In this document: piece after piece, positions 2,131 to 62,534 of the stretch | Layout of the letters: every line of letters begins with the position of its first letter | How positions within the stretch are numbered: the first letter of the stretch is position 1 | NCBI RefSeq assembly: GCF_035083965.1 | Contig: NC_089724.1 | Span: forward strand, 25,988,974-26,052,973 | Reading direction: 5' to 3' | DNA length: 64,000 nucleotides | Source of the DNA: Branchiostoma lanceolatum | Lineage: Eukaryota; Chordata; Leptocardii; Amphioxiformes; Branchiostomatidae | Program-made: the position numbers and the translations under genes | The notes under the pieces: generated by a model | Databases searched by the model: none | The model's input: only the letters and a program-made list of their open reading frames with translations | What the model was told of the DNA's origin: nothing

Positions 2131-5100
2131 ATGGAGGTCTTCACCTTACTTGAGATCATCGCGGTCTTATGGGTGACGTATTTAGTGTTTACCTGGTGGT
2201 TGGAGAAAGGACGTGTATCACAGGTCAGTTTGTTTTTTAATTTTGTTTGTTCAATTGCAATTTTTATATAAGAACACGATAAAGGCTATTTTCGTAAGTT
2301 CTATACCACAGGACCTTTTGTGTCAAAATGAAATCATATTGGCCGTACTTCGATTTAACGGCTAATGTTGTGTGATGCATTGTATTGTATTGTATGTATA
2401 CATTGCATTCCATATGTACCTTACATTGCATTGGAACCAAGGTATGCACGTAATGTATTCAAGACTGTTACATATCTATTAATCTGCACGACTGTATGGT
2501 ACAACGTATGACAACAACTATTAAATATAATGCAACGTAGAGAATAAATACATGATGAGAAGAAAATTGATAAATACATACTACCTGGCTCATACGTTTA
2601 CCGCCTTTTGGGGCACAGGTAGTTATGATTGAAGGTAGCAGATTTAAGAGGATGATCACAACTGTATAATGGAGGAGTACCCGATGTGTGTACAAATTAC
2701 CAGTATCGTGATTATATCAATTTTATTTACTTACGAGAAGTAACCGGGACATTTTGAGGGGTTTGACGAGGATGAAGGTAAAATACCCAGGTAATGACTC
2801 AGAGATACATAAGGTAACAGTTACTCAAGCAACTGGATAGATTTGAAGAGATCTTTGGAAGATTTGAAAGACTTTTTTCGAAGGTTTTCCGAAGATTATG
2901 GAAGACTTTGAAAATTTCTTTGCAAGATATTTGCATTTCTAAGCGGGGTTCTATTTGTCTACTAGCTGGCAGACAAAACCGTTGTAATCACCGGGTGTGA
3001 CACCGGGTTCGGTAACCTCCTGGCCAGGCGGCTGGACCAGCTCGGCCTGCGGGTGTTCGCTGGCTGTCTAACCGAGGCAGGCGTGGCGGAGTTACGGCAG
3101 TCCTGCTCCGAACGGCTGCAGCCGATCCAGATGGACGTCACCAGCTCAGACAGCGTACAAGCCGCGTTCCGGGTGGTGGAGAGGGCTGTGGGGAGTAAAG
3201 GTAGGAATATTTGCCGATTGGACAGAATCTTCCAGCTTCTAATCTTTTACATTCTAGTCAGATGTTTCTGACCGACACACGCTATCCCCTCATTAATTGC
3301 TGATTTAGAGCCAAATAACTATGTAACTGTAAAGAATGGGGAAATTCTTTGATTCCAGTGGTTTCTATGATAAGATTTTAATACATGTAACATGCAATTC
3401 ATGGCAGGCGAAACATTAACAGATAGATACCAATTATGCTAAAAGCATAATTGCCCAATCAATGCAAAAGTGCAATAATTCCTAAGTGGTAAATGATGGG
3501 AGGTTCATTCGAAGACTAAAGGTGTACATCGACATTCATAGATTATGTAATTATGAACGTCATTTGCATAACTTGTAAACATGTAAACAAGTATAATGTA
3601 ATTTTGATACAAAAGATAATCAATGAAAATAGATGTATCAACGAGACAGAAAATGTACAAAAAAATCTGAATTTTCATGGAGGTTATAAGTATTCGAACT
3701 TTGTTTGATATTGTAATTAAGCTGCGAAACATTTCTATTTTCCTTCAGGTACTTAGCTTGTAGATGAATTAAGATAAACGTAATTTCCTTGCATAGAAAT
3801 GACGGCGTGTGGTGAGTGGCATAATTTTCTTTTTCGTTTTTCCCAGGTTTGTGGGGGCTGGTGAACAATGCAGGCATTCTAGGTTCCGCGGTAGCAACCG
3901 CGGAGTGGGTAACTCTGTCCGATTATAAGGTTTGTATAGCCAGGTTTTCTGGCGACATTCTACGGTAACTGCAGTGAAAATTCCGGTTTTGATATCTCGT
4001 GTTTTGGACATGCTACGGTTGTGATGTTTGAGAGGTAGATAGGAACAGAGAGGAAGTTTGGTCCCCTAGGGGCTAGTTTTGTTGTAGTCTTTGAAAGAGG
4101 ATAATTCAGAAAGGGATACATGAATCGTTATGATTTGTGGTATGAAGATAGCTTAAGTTAAGATTAATTTACATAATTGGATGATGATTATTCAAATCAG
4201 GCACTAATTTTCTTAATCAGTGAAAGCACCTTATAAATCTGACACATTGTACGGTAGAACTCTCAAACATATAATATATGAAACTGAGAAAGAGAGGAAT
4301 ATTCAATAGATATCAAATGAAGCTCTAATTTGCATAATTCCTGAGAATATACTTTCATAATGGTAAAATAACGGACGGGAACATTATAAGGCATAAATCA
4401 TGCAAATTAGGGCCTTATTTACATAATTATTAGAATCAATTAGTGAAGTTAGACAGTCGTGGAACTCTAGATACTAAATTACTTTCTCTTTTATTCTAAT
4501 CATCAGGCCGCCCTGAATGTGAACTTGTTGGGGATGATTGACTAAATACTTAATTACTTTCTCTTTTATTCTAATCATCAGGCCGCCCTGAACGTGAACT
4601 TGTTGGGGATGATTGACTAAATACTAAATTACTTTCTCTTTCATTCTGATCATCAGGCCACCCTGAATGTGAACTTGTTGGGGATGATTGACTAAATACT
4701 TATTTACTTTCTCTTTTATTCTAATCATCAGGCCGCCCTGAACGTGAACTTGTTGGGGATGATTGACTAAATACTAAATTACTTTCTCTTTCATTCTGAT
4801 CATCAGGCCGCCCTGAACGTGAACTTGTTGGGGTTCTTGTTGACAAAATACTAAATTACTTTCTCTTTTATTCTAATCATCAGGCCACCCTGAATGTGAA
4901 CTTGTTGGGGATGATTGATTAAATACTAAATTACTTTCTCTTTCATTCTAATCATCAGGCCACCCTGAATGTGAACTTGTTGGGGATGGTTAACTAAATT
5001 ACTTTCTCTTTCATTCTGATCATCTGGTCGCCCTGAACGTGAACTTGTTGGGGTTGGTTGACTAAATACTAAATTACTTTCTCTTTTATTCTAATCATCA

Positions 5101-8100
5101 GGCCGCCCTGAACGTGAACTTGTTGGAGATGATTGACTTAATACTTATTTACTTTCTCTTTTATTCTAATCATCAGGCCGCCCTGAACGTGAACTTGTTG
5201 GGGATGATTGACTAAATACTTATTTACTTTCTCTTTTATTCTGATCATCATGCCGCCCTGAACGTGAACTTGTTGGGGATGATTGACTAAATACTTATTT
5301 ACTTTCTCTTTCATTCTGATCATCAGGCCGCCCTGAACGTGAACTTGTTGGGGATGATTGACTAAATACTTATTTACTTTCTCTTTTATTCTAATCATCA
5401 GGCCACCCTGAATGTGAATTTGTTGGGGATGATTGATTAAATACTAAATTACTTTCTCTTTTATTCTAATCATCAGGCCACCCTGAACGTGAACTTGTTG
5501 GGGACGATTGATTAAATACTAAATTACTTTCTCTTTCATTCTAATCATCAGGCCACCGGGAATGTGAACTTGTTGGGGATGGTTGACTAAATACTAAATT
5601 ACTTTCTCTTTCATTCTGATCATCAGGCCGCCCTGAACGTGAACTTGTTGGGGTTGGTTGACTAAATACTAAATTACTTTCTCTGTTATTCTAATCATCA
5701 GGCCACCCTGAACGTGAACTTGTTGGGGATGATTGATTAAATACTAAATTCCTTCCTCTTTCATTCTAATCATCAGGCCACCCTGAATGTGAACTTGTTG
5801 GGGATGGTTGACTAAATACTAAATTACTTTCTCTTTCATTCTGATCATCAGGCCGCCCTGAACGTGAACTTGTTGGGGTTGGTTGACTAAATACTAAATT
5901 ACTTTCTCTGTTATTCTAATCATCAGGTCGCCCTGAACGTGAACTTGTTGGGGTTGGTTGACTAAATACTAAATTACTTTCTCTTTCATTCTGATCATCA
6001 GGCCGCCCTGAACGTGAACTTGTTGGGGATGATTGACTAAATACTAAATTACTTTCTCTTTCATTCTAATCATCAGGCCGCCCTGAACGTGAACTTGTTG
6101 GGGATGATTGACTAAATACTAAATTACTTTCTCTTTCATTCTAATCATCAGGCTTCCCTGAACGTGAACTTGTTGGGGATGATTGACTAAATACTTAATT
6201 ACTTTCTCTTTCATTCTAATCATCAGGCCGCCCTGAACGTGAACTTCTTGGGGTTCTTGTTGACAAAATACTAAATTACTTTCTCTTTTATTCTAATCAT
6301 CAGGCCGCCCTGAACGTGAACTTGTTGGGGATGATTGACTATTAGTAAATACTTAATTACTTTCTCTTTTATTCTAATCATCAGGCCGCCCTGAACGTGA
6401 ACTTGTTGGGGATGATTGACTAAATACTAAATTACTTTCTCTTTCATTCTAATCATCAGGCCGCCCTGAACGTGAACTTGTTGGGGATGATTGACGTCAC
6501 CAAGACTTTTCTACCTCTTCTCAAGAAGTCACGTGGTCGTGTCGTCAACGTCGGGAGTGCCGCTGGGAGGCTGCCCATGCACAGCAACACACATTACTCT
6601 GTCTCTAAATACGGCGTGGAGGCGTTTTCTGACTCCCTCAGGTGAAAACTACATTTTCTCGCTTTTCTGTGTAACTACGGCATAAGTGTGTACCGTGTCA
6701 CGTCAGCTGGAGACTAGAAACTGGGGATTTTTCAAAAGCAACGACAAGTGATTTTTTTGACATCGACATATCGCGATGTCTCTGTACTCGGAGATGATGT
6801 TTTATAAACGTGGTCAATGCCTTACATAATGAACACTTAGAAGTACTATACTTACGCTTTGATGCAAATTTGACCGTCCCTTGCCCAGCTTGTCATTGAC
6901 ATCGTCAGAGCCAGAAACACTTCTATCATGAATGCTCATTCGTTAAAAGCTGCCAGAGTTTCAGCCCAGTAAAAATCGTAAATATTTGACCCCTGACCTC
7001 CCTCACGAAACAGCTGGCATCCTCACTTCCGCGCGCAATGCTATTTTCTTCCGGAGAATACTCCATCCCGGTTATAACCGGTTGCGTCACACAGGGCATG
7101 TTCCTGTATCCCTAATATAACCGGGCGAGGCAACTTAAGGATCTATTTTTTATGACTTATTATTCCGTGTCAACTCTCACAACTCCACTAGGTACCCTAA
7201 GACCACCACATCTAAAGCAAGTGTGTTCTCGAGGCCGTTTTAAGAATATCTTTAACACTTATTTTTTAAGCGTTTACCTTAACCTTATCTAGACCGGGGG
7301 GGGGGGGGGGGCAAAAGGTGCCCGCGGCAACTTTGACGTCCAATAGCTGCTGCACGACGTATGCTAGGACTACCAAACTAGTTGGCAACAATTTTATAGT
7401 AATAGTATAAGCTTATGATTTTTTGTGTTGCCATGGCAACGACTTTCTGGCATATTTTACAAAATTCACCAATTTCGGTTTTAACAATGAGGTCTCAAGG
7501 CTTTCTTGATCTACCACATTTGTTTTCCTACATCATTAAGATCCTGTGTTATCTAATGTAACTTTCATGATTAAATATTCATAAATTAAGCTAATTTGAT
7601 GACGTCATCGGTCGAAATCCAAGATGGCGGACAACGATTAGTTAAGGTGTAAACAGGCTTTTCCCCTACTTCAGATTCGTCCATACCTGCTATGTTTTCA
7701 ACAAAAAAACATTAAAATCAAGGTTTCTAGTCTATTTTGATTGTGTTTTGGGGTCTGAAGTAGCAAAAATTGTATTTCTAAAAAATTCTAGATCGCCAAT
7801 CCAAGATGGCGGATCCCATGGGATGGCTGAAGCCTGAAGGCATATGACGTGATTCTATGACCTCATTTTGACGTCAACGCAGTTACCATTGGCAACAGAG
7901 GTCTTGTCAGACTTCATTATCAAAGAAATACCCTTTTTTGTTAAATGATCGGTTAATACCATCATGTATTACAGAAATTCCCTATTTACACGATTTTAAC
8001 AAAGCAATTATATTTATGACGTCATAATTACGTCACATTACGTCATAACAAAACCAAAATTTCAGGAATTATTAAACTTTACATATACATCAGTCTATAC

Positions 8101-9153
8101 AAATTTGGTGATTATACCACATACCGTTCTGAAATTATGGGGGGGGCCGAATAAGCCCCCCCCCCCGTCCAGGAAGTCTAAAAAAAGCCCGGTCTAGATA
8201 GGGTTAAGGATTTCTGATACTGCAAAACAGATCTCTTGAAATTTACCCTCTATTTCAATGCGGTGGTCTTGGTTACCCCGGGATTATGAGAGTCAACGCT
8301 ATGTATTTTTTACAACATAGCGTTGGCTGAAAAGTTTTACAAACGCCAGAATTTACATATGAAGTATTTAACTTTTGGTTCGCCCAGGCGTGCTATGAGG
8401 TGCTTTGGGATCAAAGTTCACATAATCGAGCCTGGCATCTTCCGGACAAACATCAGCAACCTGGACATCCTCATTCGCGGTCTGGACGATAACTGGCAGC
8501 GGCAGAGTCCAGAGACGAGGGAGGAGTACGGAGAAGAGTTCCTACAAGCTGGTTAGTTATTAGCCCTTTCGCAGATTCGAGTACGCATGTGCAATGTCAA
8601 AGGTGAAGGCCCCTGAGACGTAAACATGCCGCCTTCCCATTGTTTTGGAAATCCAGACGATGTCGAGACGAGAACTGTTCATAAGCCAGGGGCCTTCGCC
8701 TTTGACACTGCACATGCGTACTCAAATCTACGAAAGGGCTTATTCAAACATCTTTGTGTGTTTAGGTTATGAGGTGTAGTTCCAGGATGCAAGATATTCT
8801 AAATACAAAATGATTCCTCTTACATGTAATAACATTTTGATAATGAAATATTTATTGACACAACAAATATGCATGCCCTTTATCTGAATAAGAATAAATG
8901 CCTTCTATTTCTATCGACAGCAAAGGACACCGTGGTAGCTATAGATCGGATTAAGGAAGATCCAGTAACTGTCGTTGATGCCATGGAGCATGCGCTGTGC
9001 GCTACCCATCCCCGGAGCCGTTACGTGATTGGCTGGAAGGTATGGCTGGTCGTTGTTCCCATTTCCTGGCTTCCCACGGACCTGGGCGACCTGGCGTATC
9101 GCCTAGTGCTACGGAAGGAAGCAACACCAGCGTCTTGTAAGAAGGATGAATGA
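2131..9153 (+). CDS. SDR9C-type short-chain dehydrogenase (retinol / 17-beta-hydroxysteroid dehydrogenase-like), 6 exons
   Basis: Exons 2131-2223, 2966-3200, 3847-3929, 6460-6641, 8388-8551 and 8921-9153 join in frame through GT-AG introns to 329 codons plus TGA, the usual SDR9C length. Exon 1 gives a hydrophobic N-terminal anchor (residues 4-22) typical of microsomal retinol/hydroxysteroid dehydrogenases. The NAD(P) motif TGCDTGFG is at 40-47, NNAG at 116-119, and the active site is Asn in ALNVNLLG, Ser170 (VNVGSAAG) and Tyr183/Lys187 (YSVSK). The start was chosen as the ATG just before the hydrophobic segment. The family oxidises or reduces retinoids, steroids or other lipid alcohols at the ER; the substrate here is unknown. 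The oddity is intron 3 and the start of exon 4, which are amplified into 26 upstream decoy copies (separate entry). All catalytic residues are present, so the gene looks functional if the last acceptor is used. Confidence 0.9.
2755..2850. repeat. Penelope-type terminal-repeat remnant
   Basis: The stretch GATGAAGGTAAAATACCCAG followed by TTACTCAAGCAACTGGATAG matches, in degenerate form, the terminal arm of the Penelope-like element at 61.5 kb. It lies in intron 1 of the dehydrogenase gene and is followed by purine-rich GAAGAT-type simple sequence to about 2935. Confidence 0.4.
3935..4110. repeat. Dispersed repeat (TACGG-TACTGCAG family) in intron 3
   Basis: This segment shares the pattern TTCTACGGTA, ACTGCAG, then CGTGTTTTGGACATGCTACG with segments near 16.2 kb, 44.4 kb and 51.5 kb. 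It is non-coding, has no terminal repeats I can define, and lies just after exon 3 of the dehydrogenase. About 300 bases of AT-rich unique-looking intron follow. Confidence 0.4.
4471..6495 (+). repeat. 75-bp minisatellite carrying copies of the exon-4 splice acceptor and first 12 codons
   Basis: Counting the exon-start motif gives 27 copies, spaced mostly 75 bases. Each unit has a pyrimidine tract (TTTACTTTCTCTTTTATTC), an acceptor ending CATCAG, and 36 bases encoding AALNVNLLGMID or close variants. In 26 copies the reading then hits TAA (GAC TAA ATA). Only the last copy, whose acceptor precedes 6460, continues into GTCACCAAGACT and the rest of exon 4. The TGACTAA after each coding piece could act as a branch site for the next acceptor. 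Variants include AAC/AAT, GCC/ACC and a GGGGTTCTTGTTGACAAA form. Confidence 0.95.
7277..8209. mobile_element. Non-autonomous inverted-repeat element, family I (copy 1), intron 4 of the dehydrogenase
   Basis: The ends are inverted copies of TTAACCCTATCTAGACCGGG (left end one base different), each followed by long G or C homopolymer runs. The interior is non-coding and carries repeated CCAAGATGGCGG and GACGTCA motifs. A second copy lies in the opposite orientation at 50103-51029. No transposase is visible. Half-related ends occur near 17.7 kb and 60.5 kb. Confidence 0.8.
8563..8739. mobile_element. Short TIR element (MITE) with TTA duplication
   Basis: Arms of about 50 bases begin GCCCTTTCGCAGATTCGAGT and mirror the right end, with AAGGTGAAGGCCCCTG inside. 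TTA flanks both sides, a size and sequence typical of PIF/Harbinger-type insertions. It sits only 11 bases past the exon-5 donor of the dehydrogenase. Confidence 0.75.
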
Positions 9154-9855: not shown

Positions 9856-10033
9856 AGGACGATCCTGCCAGCAGTACAAAAATTTGCACTGCATACGGGA
9901 CGATCCTGCCAGCAGTACAAAAATTTGCACTGCATACAGGACGATCTTGACAGCAGTGCAAATTTTTGTACTGCTGACAGGATCATCCTGTATGCAGTGC
10001 AAATTTTTGCACTGCTGGCAGGATCGTCCTGCC
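9856..10033. repeat. Near-perfect 178-bp palindrome with internal repeats
   Basis: AGGACGATCCTGCC units alternating with AGCAGTACAAAAATTTGCAC run toward a centre near 9945 and are mirrored to the right end. The DNA or RNA could fold into one long hairpin. It begins 44 bases from the last EGF exon, inside the 3' part of that gene or just beyond it. Confidence 0.85.
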
Positions 10034-10076
10034 ATTAGCCTTTGGCAAAGGTTTTTGTTAAACAGTGAGTACCCAC

Positions 10077-21843: not shown

Positions 21844-24800
21844 ATGGCGTCGGCTAGAATCGCCATTGTGATCGTGTCTGCTGCTATCCTGCTTCTGCTC
21901 TTCACCTCTCCACTCCTGTTTGACGTGAAACAGCCGGACATGGCGGTTCCCGCGATTAAGGCAAAAACACAGCAGCCAGAGGGAAACACAACTCAACAAC
22001 GTGCGTCAGGTACTGTAAATCGCTTTAATAATGCGGTCGGTAATTATAGCGGCTGGGTGAAAATGGATCAGCTCACGGTACTCTCCAAGCAGAGGATGGG
22101 TTCCCTACTTCATACACCTTAGTGATACAAACAATGTTTCCCTACTTCATACACCTTAGTGATACAAACAATGTTTCCCTACTTCATACACCTTAGTGAT
22201 ACAAACAATGTTTCCCTACTTCATACACCATAGTGATACAAACAATGTTTCCCTACTTCATACACCTTAGTGATACAAACAATGTTTCCCTCCTTCATAC
22301 ACCTAAGTGATACAAACAATGTTTCCCTACTTCATACACCATAGTGATACGAACAATGTTTCCCTACTTCATACACCTTAGTGATACCAACAATGTTTCC
22401 CTACTTCATACACCTTAGTGATACAAACAATGTTTCCCTACTTCATACACCTTAGTGATACAAACAATGTTTCCCTACTTTTATACACCTTAGTGATACA
22501 AACAATGTTTCCCTACCTCATACACCTTAGTGATACAAACAATGTTTCCCTACTTCATACAAGCTGGTGTGTTACGCCGAATGGCGGTTATACCGGCTAT
22601 ACAGATACAGATACAGACAGATACACCTTAGTGATACAAACAATGTTTCCCTACTTCATACACCTTAGTGATACAATGTTTCCCTACTTCATACACCATA
22701 GTGATACAAAACAATGTTTCCCTACTTCATACACCTTAGTGATACAAACAATGTTTCCCTACTTCATACACCTTAGTGATACAAACAATGTTTCCCTACT
22801 TCATACACCTTAGTGATACAAACAATGTTTCCCTACTTCATACACCTTAGTGATACAAACAATGTTTCCCTACTTCATACACCTTAGTGATACGAACAAT
22901 GTTTCCCTACTTCATACACCTTAGTGATACAAAAAATGTTTCTCTACTTCATACACCTTAGTGATACAAACAATGTTTCCCTACTTCATACACCTTAGTG
23001 ATACAAACAATGTTTCCCTACTTCATACAAGCTGGTGTGTTACGCCGACTGGCGGTTATACCGGCTATACAGATACAGATACAGACAGATACACCTTAGT
23101 GATACCAACAATGTTTCCCTACTTCATACACCTTAGTGATACAATGTTTCCCTACTTAATACACCTTAGTGATACAAAACAATGTTTCCCTACTTCATAC
23201 ACCTTAGTGATACAAACAATGTTTCTCTACTTCATACAAGCTGGTGTGTTACGCCGAATGGCGGTTATACCGGCTATACAGATACAGATACAGACAGATA
23301 CACCTTAGTGATACAAAACAATGTTTTCCTACTTCATACACCTTAGTGATACAAACAATGTTTCCCTACTTCATACAAGTTGGTGTGTTACGCCGAATGG
23401 CGGTTATACCGGCTATACAGATACAGATACAGACAGATACACCTTAGTGATACAAAACAATGTTTCCCTACTTCATACACCTTAGTGATACAAACAATGT
23501 TTCCCTACTTCATACAAGCTGGTGTGTTACGCCGAATGGCGGTTATACCGGCTATACAGATACAGATACAGACAGATACACCTTAGTGATACAAACAATG
23601 TTTCCCTACTTCATACACCTTAGTGATACAATGTTTCCCTACTTCATACACCATAGTGATACAAAACAATGTTTCCCTACTTCATACACCTTAGTGATAC
23701 AAACAATGTTTCCCTACTTCATACACCTTAGTGATACAAAAAATGTTTCCCTACTTCATACACCTTAGTTATACAAAAAATGTTTCCCTACTTCATACAC
23801 CTTAGTGATACAAACAATGTTTCCCTACTTCATACACCTTAGTGACACAAACAATGTTTCCCTACTTCATACACCTTAGTGATACGAACAATGTTTCCCT
23901 ACTTCATACACCATAGTGATACAAACAATGTTTCCCTACTTCATACACCTTAGTGATACAAACAATGTTTCCCTACTTCATACACCTTAGTGATACAAAC
24001 AATGTTTCCCTACTTCATACACCTTAGTGATACAAACAATGTTTCCCTACTTCATACACCATAGTGATACAAACAAATTTATATCTCCAACGAGTTCAGA
24101 CAAACCTTCTATGAAACAGATCTGCTTTTACATTTTTACCATTACAAAAAAGGGACAAGAAATCGCCTTTACTAACATTACTATCCATGTCGTAACTTGA
24201 CAATGTATAAACTTATGTGTCTGTTAACTGTTCTTTTGTTGTGACCTTTACTTGATCCTGTGGGTATATTATGTAAAATAAAGGTCTTCATCAATCAATA
24301 AATTAATTAAGTCATTAATTGACATATCTAAGAAACTGACCAATAATGACCAAAAATGACTACACAGTAGTCATAGAGAGTAAAGGTTTTTGCATCTTGA
24401 TGATAATCTAAATCCTAAGTAGAACCCTGGTAGATTGTCAATTTGATTGATTAATTGATTAATTAGTTAGTTCAATCATTCATTCATTAGATTAATTTAT
24501 TAAATCATTCTCTCTTACCTTCATTCATTCATTCATTCATTCATTCATTCATTCATTCAGTCATGCATTCAACATCAGTCTATTGCGGAAATCAATTCAA
24601 CCACTTCCTCCTCAAATATCCCTCTGTTTTGCAGACGAAGAATCTCACAGTCCATACGAGCGCCGGGCGGGGACACACCTGATTAAAGACTACTGCAGGA
24701 AAAACATCAACAGATCTGAGGTTAGCTCAAGTATGACAGTCTCTATCTAGTCTTTATCAGTTTTAAGCCCCTGTCACACCTGTGTGTTAATACAATTACA

Positions 24801-34241: not shown

Positions 34242-37200
34242 CTAACCACGTGAGAGGGCACACAGGTCATAGGGGTGCGGCATGTTGATCAGGGCGGTCA
34301 TGTTGCCTTCGGGGGACGGTGCAGGTGCGCCCTCCGGCAGATGGAAGGTGAAACGCTGCATCAGGGAAACGTACAGCAGGAAAAGCTCCATCTTTGCCAG
34401 CAGTTCTCCCAGGCACACGCGAGGACCTGTGATTTTTTTAGAGCAAAATTTTCAGAAACAACTCGGAAAATATACTCCAAACAACAAAACATTGACAGAG
34501 TATGGAACGAAAGTAAAAAATTATAAGAATAGGGGAAAGAATCATCTAGGGCTTGAACTTTGATGAGTCCAGAGAGACATAAAGTCCCCCAACTCACCGA
34601 CGGAAAACGGGATGAGCGCCTCGTGCTTGACGAAGTTTCCGTCCTGATCCAGGAACCTGTCGGGGTTGAAGTTCCGCGGCTCCGGGAACAGCTGAGGGTT
34701 CATGTGCACGGACCAAATATTGGACTGAAACAAACACGACATCATGCATGTAATGGAATATTGGGTTGCACAGTACATTGTCATTGACGAGTTGTCTTGT
34801 TTTCTGAAATCTACTTAGAAGATGTAATGACAACAATTGCAGTAGAACATTCGATTGCTACCTTCAAAGTAAACATCAGAAGGGAGATACATTTTGATCA
34901 CAAGAATATTGCTAGTCCAATATGTCAGAAGCCCAGTTCTCCATTAGAGTTTTGCCACCCCCACCCTCAAATTATGACATTCACGAAAAGACGTACTATG
35001 ATGGACACGTCAGCAGGGATGGTGTAGCCGTTCAGGGTGGTTGTTCTGGAGGGGGAATGCGGAACGCCGATCGGAACTGCCGAGTTGATGCGCTGTACTT
35101 CCGCTAGGGTCGCTGTTGTGTAGGGCATCTTGTCCCGGAGAGCGTAGGACGGAACGGCCTGTCCCAGGACAGAGTCGATCTCTTGGTGCACCTAGTATAG
35201 GACAAGAAAACATACACAATCAATCAATCAATCAATCAGCCAATCAATAAAAATGGTTCATTCTTCAACAGACCTGGAAGCACTACGTGTAGGGTGAATT
35301 GCGCCTATTGTTACATCGCCATCATACATACTACGCGGAGATAGCATGTCAATGTACAAATATTTCTGATTGGATTCGCCCCTTGGGCGTTGTCAAAAAG
35401 GCAACTTGCCTTTTCCTGTACATCCGGATACAGCAGCATGTACAGCACAGCCCAGCACATAGTGGTAGCAGTGGTCTCCGTACCAGCCAGAAACAGGTCC
35501 ATGATTATCTGTCATAAATTTTGAAAGGGAAAAACGGCAGGTATTTTTGCTTAATGCTACAAAATGAAATATAAATGACTATCTTCTTTAATTCGTTTCA
35601 AACTCGAAGAAAGAAATTGAGGAAAGAGTCAAATGGTACGACAAAGATGAAATATGCTGCACTATAACTCACTCTAAAACGAATATACATTTATTTAATA
35701 TATATAGATAAAACACAATCAAATACATTTTTTCTCAGAGAGTCCAAGACAGTCTGGCAGTTGTGTTATTCTTAAATCACAATTTATTCGGATCACAACA
35801 TAACTCAAGTGCAGTACAGGACACATATTCCGGCTCAGGATTAAACATTTCCTTGTGAAACACAACAGTAAGAAGAACTCAGACCAACCTCCTGCAGCTG
35901 TTTGTCCGTGAAGCTGGACTGCGCATGCTCTCCTCCGGCGTGCTGCTGTTCCAACAAGAAGGCATCGATAAAGTCCCGGATGTCGTTAGGGTCAAAGGTC
36001 TCCCTGTGCGTCTCTATCTGTCCTCTACAGTACGTCTGGAGTTTGGACGTGCTTTTTGCCAGTTTCCTTTGTTCCGGAGAGCCGAAGGGAAGATGGCGTA
36101 GCGCGGGGTGGATGTTAGCCAGGAGGTCCTCTGATGGCTTTACATTTACATTGTCATTCAATACCTCAATCAGCCACAGGAACTCAGGGTCGCCATACTC
36201 GAACCGCTTCCCGAAGACGATGGAGCAGATGATGTTAGAAACTGCGTTTTGCATCAGATGCTTGATGTTGAACGGCTGACCGTCTTTCGCCACGAGTTCC
36301 TGACTAAGAGCTGCGGCCTCCTCACAAATCTTCCCCTCCAGGCTCCGCTTGCCGACGCCGAAGTCTCGGAGGGTCTTCAGGGCAAACCTTCGCTGCTGCC
36401 TCCAGTCGTGTCCGTACTCGGCGAACAGCACACCTGAATATAAAATTGCCTTTTTGTTTAAAACGCGTTCTGGTAGTAAAGAAATCGGGTTTATTTGCTT
36501 AAGCCCCCGTCACAAATAAGAAATTCAGCTCGGCCACGTGTTGGCGAGCTTCAAATGTGCATTTTCGGCCGAAGTACGGCCGACGTCCTGTCGATTACGC
36601 GGGCTTCGGGCGATTTTTAGAAATCAAAGTTGATCCAAATATTGGCCTTTTACCAGGTTAGTCGATACTGACTTCGTCCATGTCCAATAGATAGTACCAT
36701 CTCATGGGGGATTTTTAGTTTTTAGTGTTCGACGGACGTTGCCCGAGATTTTCATTGGAAAATACGGTCGACGCTCGGGCGATTTTGAAATTCGGCGAGC
36801 TTCGGGCGATCTACAAATTCGGCCGACGCTCGCATGAATTGTGACGCCGGCTTTAGAAATTCAGCTACAGAAAATGCTATAAAATAGCTACAGAAATTCA
36901 GCTACAGAAAAGCAAAGAGTAGGTTCCTTTTGCCTCACCTTTAGCTGCCTTGGAGGACGTCCCATCTCCACGGGTGTCCACGATCGCTGGCGGAACTTTC
37001 CGACTGGAGAAGTCCTCGGCCCTTCTGACCAGGACCTCTCGGATCGTCTCGTATCCACTGATGATGACGTAAGGTTCCCTCGCGACCCACATGGTCATGA
37101 CGTCACCGTACTTCTGAGATAGCTGGTACAAGGTATCGGGTGGGAAGGTAGACTAGTGGGCCAAAGAAAACAGATATAGTTGTAGTGATTTTCTACACGC

Positions 37201-40925: not shown

Positions 40926-43900
40926 ATGTGTGTTCTGATGGAGGCCGCGACGGCCGCCCGCCATTCCGTGGATCTTCCGACGATCCTGGTGGCGATGACG
41001 ACCTGTCTGCTGACTTACATGTACCTGCAGCGTCACAGGAACCTACCGCCCGGCCCCCCGGCCTTGCCGGTACTAGGGAACATCCCGTACTTTATGTGGT
41101 TTAAGGTGAGTGCTGTGGAGCTTACATCATATGTAACGCTGTGGTATATTTCTATGTTGATGCACAAACGCCCTCGCTCTTAAAAACAAAAACTCTCATT
41201 GGAGTTTAAAGAATGTGCTGCGCAGTGATCTATCTCTTTCTCTCTCGAGCTCTTTCTGGCTCTCTCTTCAAAGTATGTACGTAATCCGATCATATGTAGG
41301 CGTAAAGGTTCCGTTTCTTCACTCATGCTTCGAGGTGTGTTTAGGGATCGCGTTGTCGTAAATACAACCTCTTTGGTATATAGGAGGGAATTGAACACGA
41401 GAACATTCAGAACCTGGATTGGTGAAATATTCACCTAAATCTGCAACAGTCACATTGCTGGAATAATTCACGGACCGCCCAAAAGATAGAGGGACAAGAT
41501 TTCGAAAACAAAAACGGTGGCGTGATCACAATGTATATTTGCCCTCCACATAATGTTTACATGAGCCAAATACAGGTAGGATTTTGAAAACGGTCAGACG
41601 TTTCAGGTAGCATCCAGTACCCCTCACCAGAAACATTGTAGAACAACAGGTTTGTAACCACCAGCTATGAATTGATATGCAAATACAGTGAGTGGGAATA
41701 AAGAGAAGACAACTTCAGATAGTCCAATAGGAAACAAAAGTATTAGACTGTATAAGATTTTCTTCACTTTACCGGAAGAATACGATTTGTTGTCAAGCTG
41801 TCAGATGAGCAGTGAAGCATAAACGTTAACATTGCGGGGAGATCTAAAGTGTCAGTCGTATAGAGTAACGTAAAATAGGTTCTTTTGTTTTTGTTTTGTA
41901 TCGCATAACTGGTATATCGCCTTTAGGCATAACAAACTAGTTTTGTACAGTCGGCACATACCAGACTAAAAGGTTTAATCCACTTTTACCGGGATGGACC
42001 CCTACTATTTTCGAAAAGTGTCGATGGATCTTTAACGTGCTCGAAGTGTGACGACCCTCAATTATATACACGGGAAGTTCAGTTTTAGGTCTCATCCGAG
42101 AGGACGTCCCTAACCGAAGCTAGGCTCGCATTTACCCCTGAGTCAAGTGAATAAATAGATGAAATGTACCTTTCCAAAGGGCACAGCATGGCGGCCTGCC
42201 CGGGATTCGAACCCAGAACCTTTAGATTCTAAGTCAACAACCTAGCCACGAGCCTTGCCGCCTTAACTTAAACTTCTAGTCACTGTGAAAACGTCAGATG
42301 ATCGCCCTATTTGTCTCCACAGCCCGAGTTCAGTCCCGCCTTTTTGACGGATTTGTCCAAGACGTACGGTGACGTCATGTGTTTCTGGCTCGCCGGCAGT
42401 AGACTGCACGTCGTGATCAGCGGCCGGGACGCCATCCGGCACGCTCTGGTCACCAGGGCTGACGACCTCTCCAGCCGCAGGGTACCGCCAACAACCGCGT
42501 ACATCCGAGGGGATGGGACGTCTAGTAAAACGGCTAAAGGTAAGGCGATAGGTGCCATTATACTCCTGCTCATTCCGGACACTATTCCAGCCGGAGAAGT
42601 ACCGCCAACAACCGTGTACATCCGAGGGGATGGGGCGTCTAGTAAAGCGACTAAAGGTCATTGCAAGTGTCATTACAAGAAAGTTCGAAACATGGTAGAT
42701 AGTGTCATTTATTTAGTCATTTTGCTTTTGGACAGACAAGGGCGACGTGGCACTGCACTCAGGTTTTTTTATAACTTATACTAACAGTGCCATGTAAAGG
42801 GATAACCCATTTTTACACCTGGGTGGAGTGACGAAAATCGTGTAAAGTGCCTTTCCTAAAGGCGCAACATCTGTGATGTCAGGGGATTTGAACCCGGGAC
42901 CGCTGGGTTGTGGGTCAAGCACGATAGTGGTTGTTGGCCTTAGCCATCAGTTTCTCATCTCTGTGCACATAGGATATTGGTTGACCTTTGACCGTAGACG
43001 TTGTTTGATTTACGCGATGATAGAGATATAGATTGCATCACTTTATTATGCGATGCTTTCCCTTAAAGTTTTCTTGACAAAAATACGTTTCACTGCCATT
43101 TTGAGTTATTGAGCTCTCCATGGCCAGTGTGTACGTTTAGGTGCTCTAGCCCGTCGTTTCCTAAAACGAATCCAAAGATGAAATAAAAGAAGATAAGCTT
43201 ATTTTAATTGGTTTTATAAAATGCTTCTGAAACGCTAAACGAAAGCCCTTTGCTACTTTATAGGTGTGCTGTTCGCCGAGTACGGACACGACTGGAGGCG
43301 GCAGCGGAGGTTTGCCCTGAAGACCCTCCGAGACTTCGGCGTCGGCAAGCGGAGCCTGGAGGGGAAGATTTGTGAGGAGGCCGCAGCTCTGAGCCAGGAA
43401 CTCGTGGCGAAAGACGGTCAGCCGTTCAACATCAAGCATCTGTTGCAAAACGCAGTTTCTAACATCATCTGCTCCATCGTCTTCGGGAAGCGGTTCGAGT
43501 ATGGCGACCCCGAGTTTCTACAGATAATCACCTTATTGAACAATATCGTAGCAGCAAGGCCTGGGAGAGATATTCTAGTCAACATCCATCCCATATTTCG
43601 CCACATCCCCTTTGTCTCTCAGGAGGACAGGAAAGTCAACAAGAACTTTTCAGAAATGCAGGCGTTCTGCAGGCAGCAAATACAACAGCACAGGGAGACC
43701 TTTGACCCTAACGACATCCGGGACTTCATCGATGCCTTCCTGCTGGAACAGCAGCGCGCCGGAGGAAACCAGACACAAACCGGCTTCACGGACAAACAGC
43801 TGCAGGAGGTTGGTCTGAGGTCTTCTTACTGTTATGTTATGCAGGGAAATGTTTGTTTCTGAACCAGAATGTGGGCACTTTACTGTATTCATTCATTGTC

Positions 43901-54329: not shown

Positions 54330-54640
54330 ACCTATGCATCAAATATTACATCCGTAGTATTTACCGTAAGTTAATACAACTTTCTGATTAATTATGCAAA
54401 TGAGGTCCTCAACCTCATAGCCAGGCGTACTCACCTTTCTTAAAGGTACCTACACTTCAAAAATGAGATCCGTAGTATTTACTATAATGGAATTACACGT
54501 TTCTGCATATATCATGCATTAGCATAATTTATATACAGGTGTATTCACCTTTTCTAAAGGTACCTACAAATCAAATATGACATCTGTAGCATTTATCGCA
54601 AGGGAAATACAAGTTCCTGAATAAATCATGCAATAGAAAG
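54330..54640. repeat. Three diverged ~110-bp tandem copies
   Basis: TCCGTAGTATTTAC, AAATCATGCA-type and CACCTTTCTTAAAGGTACC recur three times with drift. Non-coding; purine-rich DNA follows to 54745. Confidence 0.6.
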
Positions 54641-61806: not shown

Positions 61807-62304
61807 CTAAAGCTGGTTTGCCCTCAAGGCTATGTCCCAAGTGCCAGACAGTTCCACCCTTAGCCCTCCTTTCCTGTTGAGGGTTGGATTGTATATCCTC
61901 TCATATATTGCCTCCCTTACTCCACGTTCGAACCAGCGGGGTTCGCGGTCAAGGATATCAGTGGATTCGAGATTGAACGAGTGCCCCTGGTTGTGTTTTA
62001 GGTGGTGGAAAATGGCCGAGGAGTAGCGGTTAGCGCAATGTTCTTTGTACCTTTCATTAAGTGATCGGCTGGTCTCTCCGATATAAGTGTTGTTGCAGTT
62101 GGGTTCTTCACATTTGAGTCTGTAGATGACATCGGCCTTGCTGCCTTTGCGGGGTCGGTCTTTAGGATGTACAAGTCTTTGTCTGAGAGTTGATTGAGGT
62201 TTGAAGTTGGTGGCAATGTTGAAGTTTTGGAAGATCCGTCGGAGTTTTTCGGACACTCCTTGTACATACGGAATAGTGATGTTGGCCTTGTTTCTGTTGG
62301 TCAA
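61807..62304 (-). CDS. GIY-YIG endonuclease domain of a Penelope-like element (5'-truncated)
   Basis: An open 165-codon frame holds VIYRLKCEEPNCNNTYIGET followed by SRSLNERYKEH, then FHHLKHNQGHSFN and REAIYERIYNPTLNRKGG. These are the IY...YIG pair, the downstream arginine, the conserved Cys/His residues and the glutamate-bearing helix of Penelope GIY-YIG endonucleases, which nick target DNA for reverse transcription. The reverse-transcriptase part is absent, so this copy is not autonomous. The ATG at 62304 is just the first in the truncated frame. Confidence 0.88.
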   Translation of the reverse strand: MTNRNKANITIPYVQGVSEKLRRIFQNFNIATNFKPQSTLRQRLVHPKDRPRKGSKADVIYRLKCEEPNCNNTYIGETSRSLNERYKEHCANRYSSAIFHHLKHNQGHSFNLESTDILDREPRWFERGVREAIYERIYNPTLNRKGGLRVELSGTWDIALRANQL

Positions 62305-62534
62305 CGGTGTACACTTAGGCGTTTTCTTGGACTGGTCAGACGGTTTGAGGGCAAACCAGCTTTAGCTCCTATATTAAAACATAGGAGCTATTGTTCCCTT
62401 TACTTCAACCTTGTCTTGAGTTGTCTAATTTGCTTTCTATTGGACTATCTAAAAATTTGTCTTCCCCTTATTTGCATATCAATTCATAGTTCGTGGTTAT
62501 AAACCTGCTGTTCAACTGATCTTGCTCACAGTCA

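Follow-up and report, generated by a model that had tools for sequence, protein, structure and literature searches.

Some amphioxus genes carry mirages, minisatellites whose unit repeats both sides of an exon-intron boundary; those of Adh3 were reportedly presented by Canestro et al. in 2002, and Dalfo et al. are said to have described the amphioxus microsomal retinol dehydrogenase gene in 2001. Here we analyze a structure of this build, a 75-bp array at the boundary between intron 3 and exon 4 of a DHRS9-like dehydrogenase gene, located in 64,000 nt of Branchiostoma lanceolatum DNA (contig NC_089724.1, positions 25,988,974 to 26,052,973, forward strand). This whole stretch is called the window below, and positions are counted from its first letter. 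The likeness to Adh3 is that of a minisatellite lying across an exon-intron boundary in an amphioxus dehydrogenase gene; Adh3 itself is a medium-chain alcohol dehydrogenase, of a family unrelated to the short-chain host gene.

Adh3 mirages are boundary-spanning minisatellites with units of 10–72 bp and somatic instability (as relayed by PMC3087553 and PMC3902484), and they are present in both B. floridae and B. lanceolatum (PMC3087553). In the BflGb6 globin mirage, units of 150–160 bp repeat the 5′ part of exon 2 along with the 3′ end of the preceding intron; two haplotypes carry six and three of these units, and reverse transcription PCR (RT-PCR) was taken as suggesting regular splicing (PMC3087553). 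BflGb6, for whose units concerted evolution is recorded, resembles our array in the build of the boundary and in the splice signals found in many units; it differs in unit size and number, ours being 27 units of 75 bp, and in the RT-PCR, which exists for BflGb6 only. According to the same paper, the Adh3 data and the globin RT-PCR suggest that regular splicing is undisturbed; it also describes the lengths as unstable. For other loci with similar structures it points to its references 69 and 70, the former on the amphioxus microsomal retinol dehydrogenase, whose reportedly similar structure may belong to the present gene or to a paralogue.

Tandem repeats overlapping splice sites, and alike in this respect to our array, also occur in lancelet PGBD5 and troponin C, where they were argued to be harmless to splicing (PMC3902484). 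The PGBD5 repeats consist of 60-bp units (2 or 7) and 108-bp units (3 or 6), depending on the lancelet sequence version, and splicing was deduced there from homology, with cDNA for the N-terminus only (PMC3902484). Cryptococcus CNN00420 shares the expansion of a repeat bearing splice signals, but its repeats contain whole introns, whereas our units repeat an acceptor together with an exon start (PMC2395259). Intronic minisatellites of C. elegans are the subject of PMC4039745. Literature covered mostly as titles and the beginnings of abstracts held no description of the 75-bp array beyond the citation of reference 69 in PMC3087553, and the 27 copies exceed the amphioxus counts readable in the accessible texts (6 and 3 in BflGb6, 2 to 7 in PGBD5). 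By analogy, the array would be a structure of the mirage class already described for amphioxus genes, and it may be the described locus: its tandem unit covers both sides of the boundary, and the splice signal is kept by many, though not all, units (AG in 24 of the 26 upstream copies, termed decoys). An earlier note on this DNA, made from the sequence, had reported the array without recognizing that class.

Structure of the array and its host gene

Tandem Repeats Finder detected a repeat of period 75 at positions 4467–6495, with 27.0 copies, 91% matches, 1% indels and a score of 3289. Anchoring on the exon core gave 27 copies, whose 26 spacings are 75 bp in 22 cases, 68 bp in one, 77 bp in two and 81 bp in one. 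On its face, a 75-bp unit present 27 times with 91% matches is not a chance product. The array lies on the plus strand and consists of the 26 decoy units (4472–6424, with exonic parts starting at 4507 through 6385) followed by copy 27, the putative productive one. In each unit, intron 3 contributes about 39 nt (TAAA, then 35 nt with CATCAG at the end) and exon 4 contributes 36 nt, or 12 codons, the latter coding for AALNVNLLGMID in copy 27 and for AALNVNLLGMID or a variant of it across the units. The units also carry a pyrimidine-rich tract; CATCAG is present in 25 of the 27 copies, and a branch-like motif, TACTAAAT, in 18 of 27, with near variants in the other nine. The 5′ flank of the array reads ...GAACTCTAGATACTAAATT and the first unit junction ...GATTGACTAAATACTTAATT. 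Only copy 27 is followed by the rest of exon 4, which starts at 6460.

When six exons on the plus strand are joined, 990 nt including the stop codon remain in frame and code for 329 aa. They are exon 1, with the start codon and a hydrophobic N-terminus (2131–2223); exon 2, with the cofactor motif TGCDTGFG (2966–3200); exon 3, with an NNAG motif (3847–3929); exon 4, 182 nt long, starting within copy 27 and ending at the donor CAG|GTGAAA (6460–6641); exon 5 (8388–8551); and exon 6, with the stop codon (8921–9153). All five introns are GT-AG. Intron 3 (3930–6459), entered from exon 3 in phase 0, measures 2530 nt, of which 577 nt remain once the 26 decoy units are subtracted. The best match of the 329-aa protein in the PDB was DHRS9 (9b2f; E 2e-75), the next best having an E value of 2.1e-25, and the DHRS9 alignment shows no gap at the junction where exon 3 meets exon 4 (DYK|AALNVN). 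We regard the predicted gene model, with copy 27 starting exon 4, as sound because it is open over 329 aa and aligns ungapped to DHRS9 at this junction.

The exon 4 peptide matches Pfam adh_short; among the 25 NCBIfam matches listed, none was above the curated cut-off. Judged from these matches, the host gene would be a short-chain dehydrogenase closest to DHRS9, which we take to be an SDR9C member. Reading the protein by eye, we found VN within the repeated part, S in NVGSAAG, and YSVSK downstream; these presumably supply the Asn, Ser, Tyr and Lys of a catalytic tetrad and play the corresponding roles. A decoy product would lack the putative catalytic Ser, Tyr and Lys, all three of which lie downstream of the repeated part. 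An N-S-Y-K catalytic tetrad is named for SDR9C in PMC9859523; lancelets are unmentioned in its main text as far as available, and hence conservation of the intron position is not established by it. The accessible part of PMC8387019 covers Rdh11/12 genes and has nothing on the present gene. No further dehydrogenase paralogue was found in the window, where tblastn gave no match with E<1 outside the gene. Upstream of the gene, 3.1 tandem copies of a 416-bp unit occupy positions 1–1276 and reach the window start.

Decoy copies and the choice of acceptor

Splicing into any of the 26 decoys leads to a premature stop, with predicted products of 149–174 aa compared with 329 aa. The stop stands at codon 13 as GAC TAA in 17 decoys, GAT TAA in four and AAC TAA in one. 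Copies 5 and 24, both frameshifted, reach a stop after 15 codons; copy 25 has a TAG after 13 codons; and copy 9, with no stop of its own, stays open as far as copy 10, where it ends after 37 codons. Given otherwise normal splicing, all 26 stops lie at least 385 nt upstream of the last exon junction. Decay of mRNAs with such early stops is expected, and it would therefore be the likely fate of decoy-spliced mRNA.

The acceptor AG is intact in 24 of the 26 decoys, copy 8 (5027) having TG and copy 11 (5252) AT in its place. We compared acceptors by a crude measure of our own (pyrimidines in −20..−4, AG intact, no AG in −29..−3), on which 22 of 26 decoys match copy 27; the interval −29..−3 is free of AG in 27 of 27 units. 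Outside the array, the measure equals or exceeds that of copy 27 at 65 of 1814 YAG sites on the plus strand and 27 of 1728 on the minus strand. By this crude measure the decoys appear to be good acceptors in form. The earlier note's account of a 75-bp repeat of acceptor and exon 4 start in a dehydrogenase gene, in which only the 27th copy continues the exon, is confirmed by Tandem Repeats Finder, the exon-core anchoring and the exon start at 6460, where exon 4 proper begins. Its claim that decoy use truncates the protein also stands, all 26 stops preceding the later catalytic residues. "TAA after GAC" in 26 copies is right as to premature stops but literal in 17 only, and the 26 good acceptors are reduced to 24 by the AG losses in copies 8 and 11.

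Most likely, copy 27 is the acceptor used and the array is removed with intron 3. According to the accessible part of PMC9225289, where the flanking introns are large, splicing favors those sites that lie nearest to each other across the exon, and such a preference would favour copy 27 with its 182-nt exon. Why copy 27 should be chosen would follow from this proximity and from the precedent of other mirages; the sequence by itself does not settle the question. We hold it to be highly probable that the array is an amphioxus-type mirage, that is, an unstable but tolerated minisatellite that is spliced out with intron 3 while copy 27 is used. Leaks into upstream copies would yield mRNAs with premature stops, which would be degraded; for the most part the array would be neutral, and its copy number would probably vary. 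We discarded recursive splicing on inspection by eye; the units read CAG|GCC, and the lone AG|GT (copy 20, AG|GTCGCC) is unlike a donor.

Leakage is plausible to some extent, because exon 4 would measure only 257 nt if begun at copy 26 and 338 nt if begun at copy 25. One reading builds on it: leaks into the 3′-most copies, followed by decay, might act as a variable brake, with array length setting retinol-dehydrogenase output between individuals and perhaps also between cells of one animal. A variant of this reading has decoys included as 12-nt in-frame microexons (Ala-Ala-Leu-Asn), which is conceivable since GTGAA, present in each unit, agrees at +1 to +5 with CAG|GTGAAA, the real donor of exon 4. 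Jointly, the brake, its difference between cells and the microexon variant strike us as quite unlikely.

Origin, turnover and selection

As a tolerated mirage, the array could have arisen by tandem duplication of a short segment that ran from the last part of intron 3 through nucleotide 36 of exon 4. By eye, the first duplication would have joined exonic ...GAC to the intron at C|TAGATAC with one base in common, whereby an intronic TAG or TAA (TA(G/A)ATAC) would have become the in-frame stop at the junction. Expansion and mixing via unequal exchange or conversion may then have followed, with exon 3 joined to the last copy, probably as the acceptor nearest the exon 4 donor.

Mean pairwise identity among the 26 decoys is 91.3%. 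A few variable sites assign copies 7, 15 and 18 to one type and copies 8, 16 and 19 to another, the two types always being adjacent; the adjacent pairs 7-8, 15-16 and 18-19 were reproduced in 82 of 200000 shuffles, in a test chosen post hoc. Copies 2 and 26 are also of one type, and copies 5 and 24 have a common insertion. Together with exact runs of up to 143 nt and the identity of copies 22 and 27 described below, this pattern would suit the exchange of blocks between units of a mixed array, short of proof.

The number of copies might conceivably be a product of assembly, as might the array itself, which amounts to 2 kb of near-identical units. Yet the units differ from each other, some have indels of their own, and the longest exact run between sites at least 60 bp apart is 143 nt (spaced 225 bp); moreover, mis-assembly more often collapses tandem arrays. 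We therefore consider an artefact extremely unlikely, even though the BflGb6 haplotype 1 mirage was apparently misassembled in the draft genome (PMC3087553) and PGBD5 repeat numbers disagree between two lancelet sequence versions (PMC3902484).

Copies 22 and 27 are identical across the 71 nt compared, and copy 27 has the commonest base at all 71 positions, one of them a 13:13 tie. Exchange between decoys and the real exon start would be compatible with these data. Such exchange could make the array a conversion reservoir from which decoy variants (Ala2 to Thr, Met10-Ile11 to Leu-Val) enter the protein, and conservative variants do recur in the decoys. However, recent expansion at the 3′ end may explain the identity of copies 22 and 27, and exchange is to be expected in any tandem array without a function being required, so that we rate a reservoir as very unlikely. 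The earlier suggestion of a conversion donor thus survives as possible exchange, of hypothetical direction and function.

We tested for selection on the decoys and found none. Their distinct exonic variants comprise 10 nonsynonymous and 4 synonymous changes, where 83 (including 2 stops) and 25, respectively, could occur (p=0.54). This codon count omits the end of copy 7 as well as the tails of copies 5 and 24, which are frameshifted. Changes at the AG positions number 2 versus 2.1 expected from the divergence of the remaining sites between −35 and +27 (63/1560). Decoy variation appears to fit neutral decay, at low power.

These counts bear on the idea that the array is a copy-number rheostat, in which decoys draw splicing away from copy 27, each use giving a premature-stop mRNA, and the length of the array determines how much dehydrogenase is made. 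The retention of AG in 24 of 26 decoys, the AG-free interval in every unit, the 22 decoys equal to copy 27 on the crude tract measure and the position of all decoy stops upstream of the last junction (by at least 385 nt, as above) would suit it, but AG changes have accumulated at the neutral rate and codon changes look unconstrained. Mirages of the same build are also reported with regular splicing in the accessible text of PMC3087553, although RT-PCR may miss degraded products. A rheostat is in our estimate unlikely, and the tuning of expression by copy number proposed in the earlier note finds no support in the neutral look of the decoy changes or in the regular splicing of same-build amphioxus structures.

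Several points weigh against a tolerated mirage spliced through copy 27. The use of copy 27 is a prediction from sequence, and length polymorphism is known from other loci only. By the crude measure, most decoy acceptors equal that of copy 27 (the 22 of 26 given above), and exon size alone would not silence copies 25 and 26. No donor of the form GTRNG occurs in 4471–6459, which is a poor argument for copy 27: only one of the five real donors of the gene has this form, that of exon 4 falling outside it, and GTGAA is present in 27 of 27 units (20 AAC|GTGAAC, six AAT|GTGAAC and one AAT|GTGAAT). We rejected a donor-free array as the cause of copy 27 use, four of five real donors being equally non-GTRNG. 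As for turnover, similarity showed no fall with distance, 0 of 12 lags being above 5000 shuffles at p<0.05 (at lag 1, 0.9145 compared with 0.9132 in shuffles). The neutrality test has little power, resting on 14 distinct variants in units that share ancestry.

With 24 AG-bearing, near-identical acceptors ahead of the productive one, the locus is a strong natural test of 3′ splice site choice, which could fall either on the first acceptor across the intron or, counted across the exon, on the one nearest to the donor. Nearly exclusive use of copy 27 would be explained most simply by proximity across the exon; if leakage grows toward the 3′ end, array length would be an expression variable. The outcome also bears on the proposal, in the accessible text of PMC3087553, that such arrays seed new introns.

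Other boundary duplications and repeats in the window

A second boundary duplication is present in a CYP2-like gene on the plus strand (42323–43523), where the end of exon 2 with its donor occurs in two copies that are 90% identical (42470–42658). The copies are at 42470–42541 (donor GTAAGG) and 42586–42658 (donor GTCATT). A CYP2-like paralogue lies in the opposite orientation (36177–37146, minus strand), with exon 2 at 37146–36937 and donor GTGAGG; in the approximately 150 nt after this donor, no second copy of the exon end was found. The exon 3 peptides of the pair are 98% identical over 86 aa, compared with 56% over 71 aa for exon 2, and recent conversion is possible. On the minus strand within the CYP2-like gene region, 45265–45588 matches a DDE superfamily endonuclease and is probably a transposon remnant.

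Tandem Repeats Finder listed 37 rows in the 64-kb window, some of them overlapping. The occurrence of two boundary duplications in 64 kb, together with these many tandem repeats, suggests that such events are common in this genome. A 114-bp duplication at 54422–54636, which contains a GGTGAGT-like string, was considered as a mirage and dropped after reading of the sequence; no overlapping open frame of at least 85 aa was listed there, and no full gene search was made.

Among the other repeats, a long 37-bp minisatellite at 22101–24076 has higher-order periods of 111, 139 and 209 bp. At 9856–10034, a 41-bp unit is present in about 4.4 copies, which by eye are partly reverse-complement, and what looks by eye like an EGF-like exon adjoins this repeat on the minus strand. 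An open frame at 61807–62361 (minus strand) matches GIY-YIG with 22.4 bits versus a Pfam cut-off of 22.6 bits and is perhaps a retroelement remnant.

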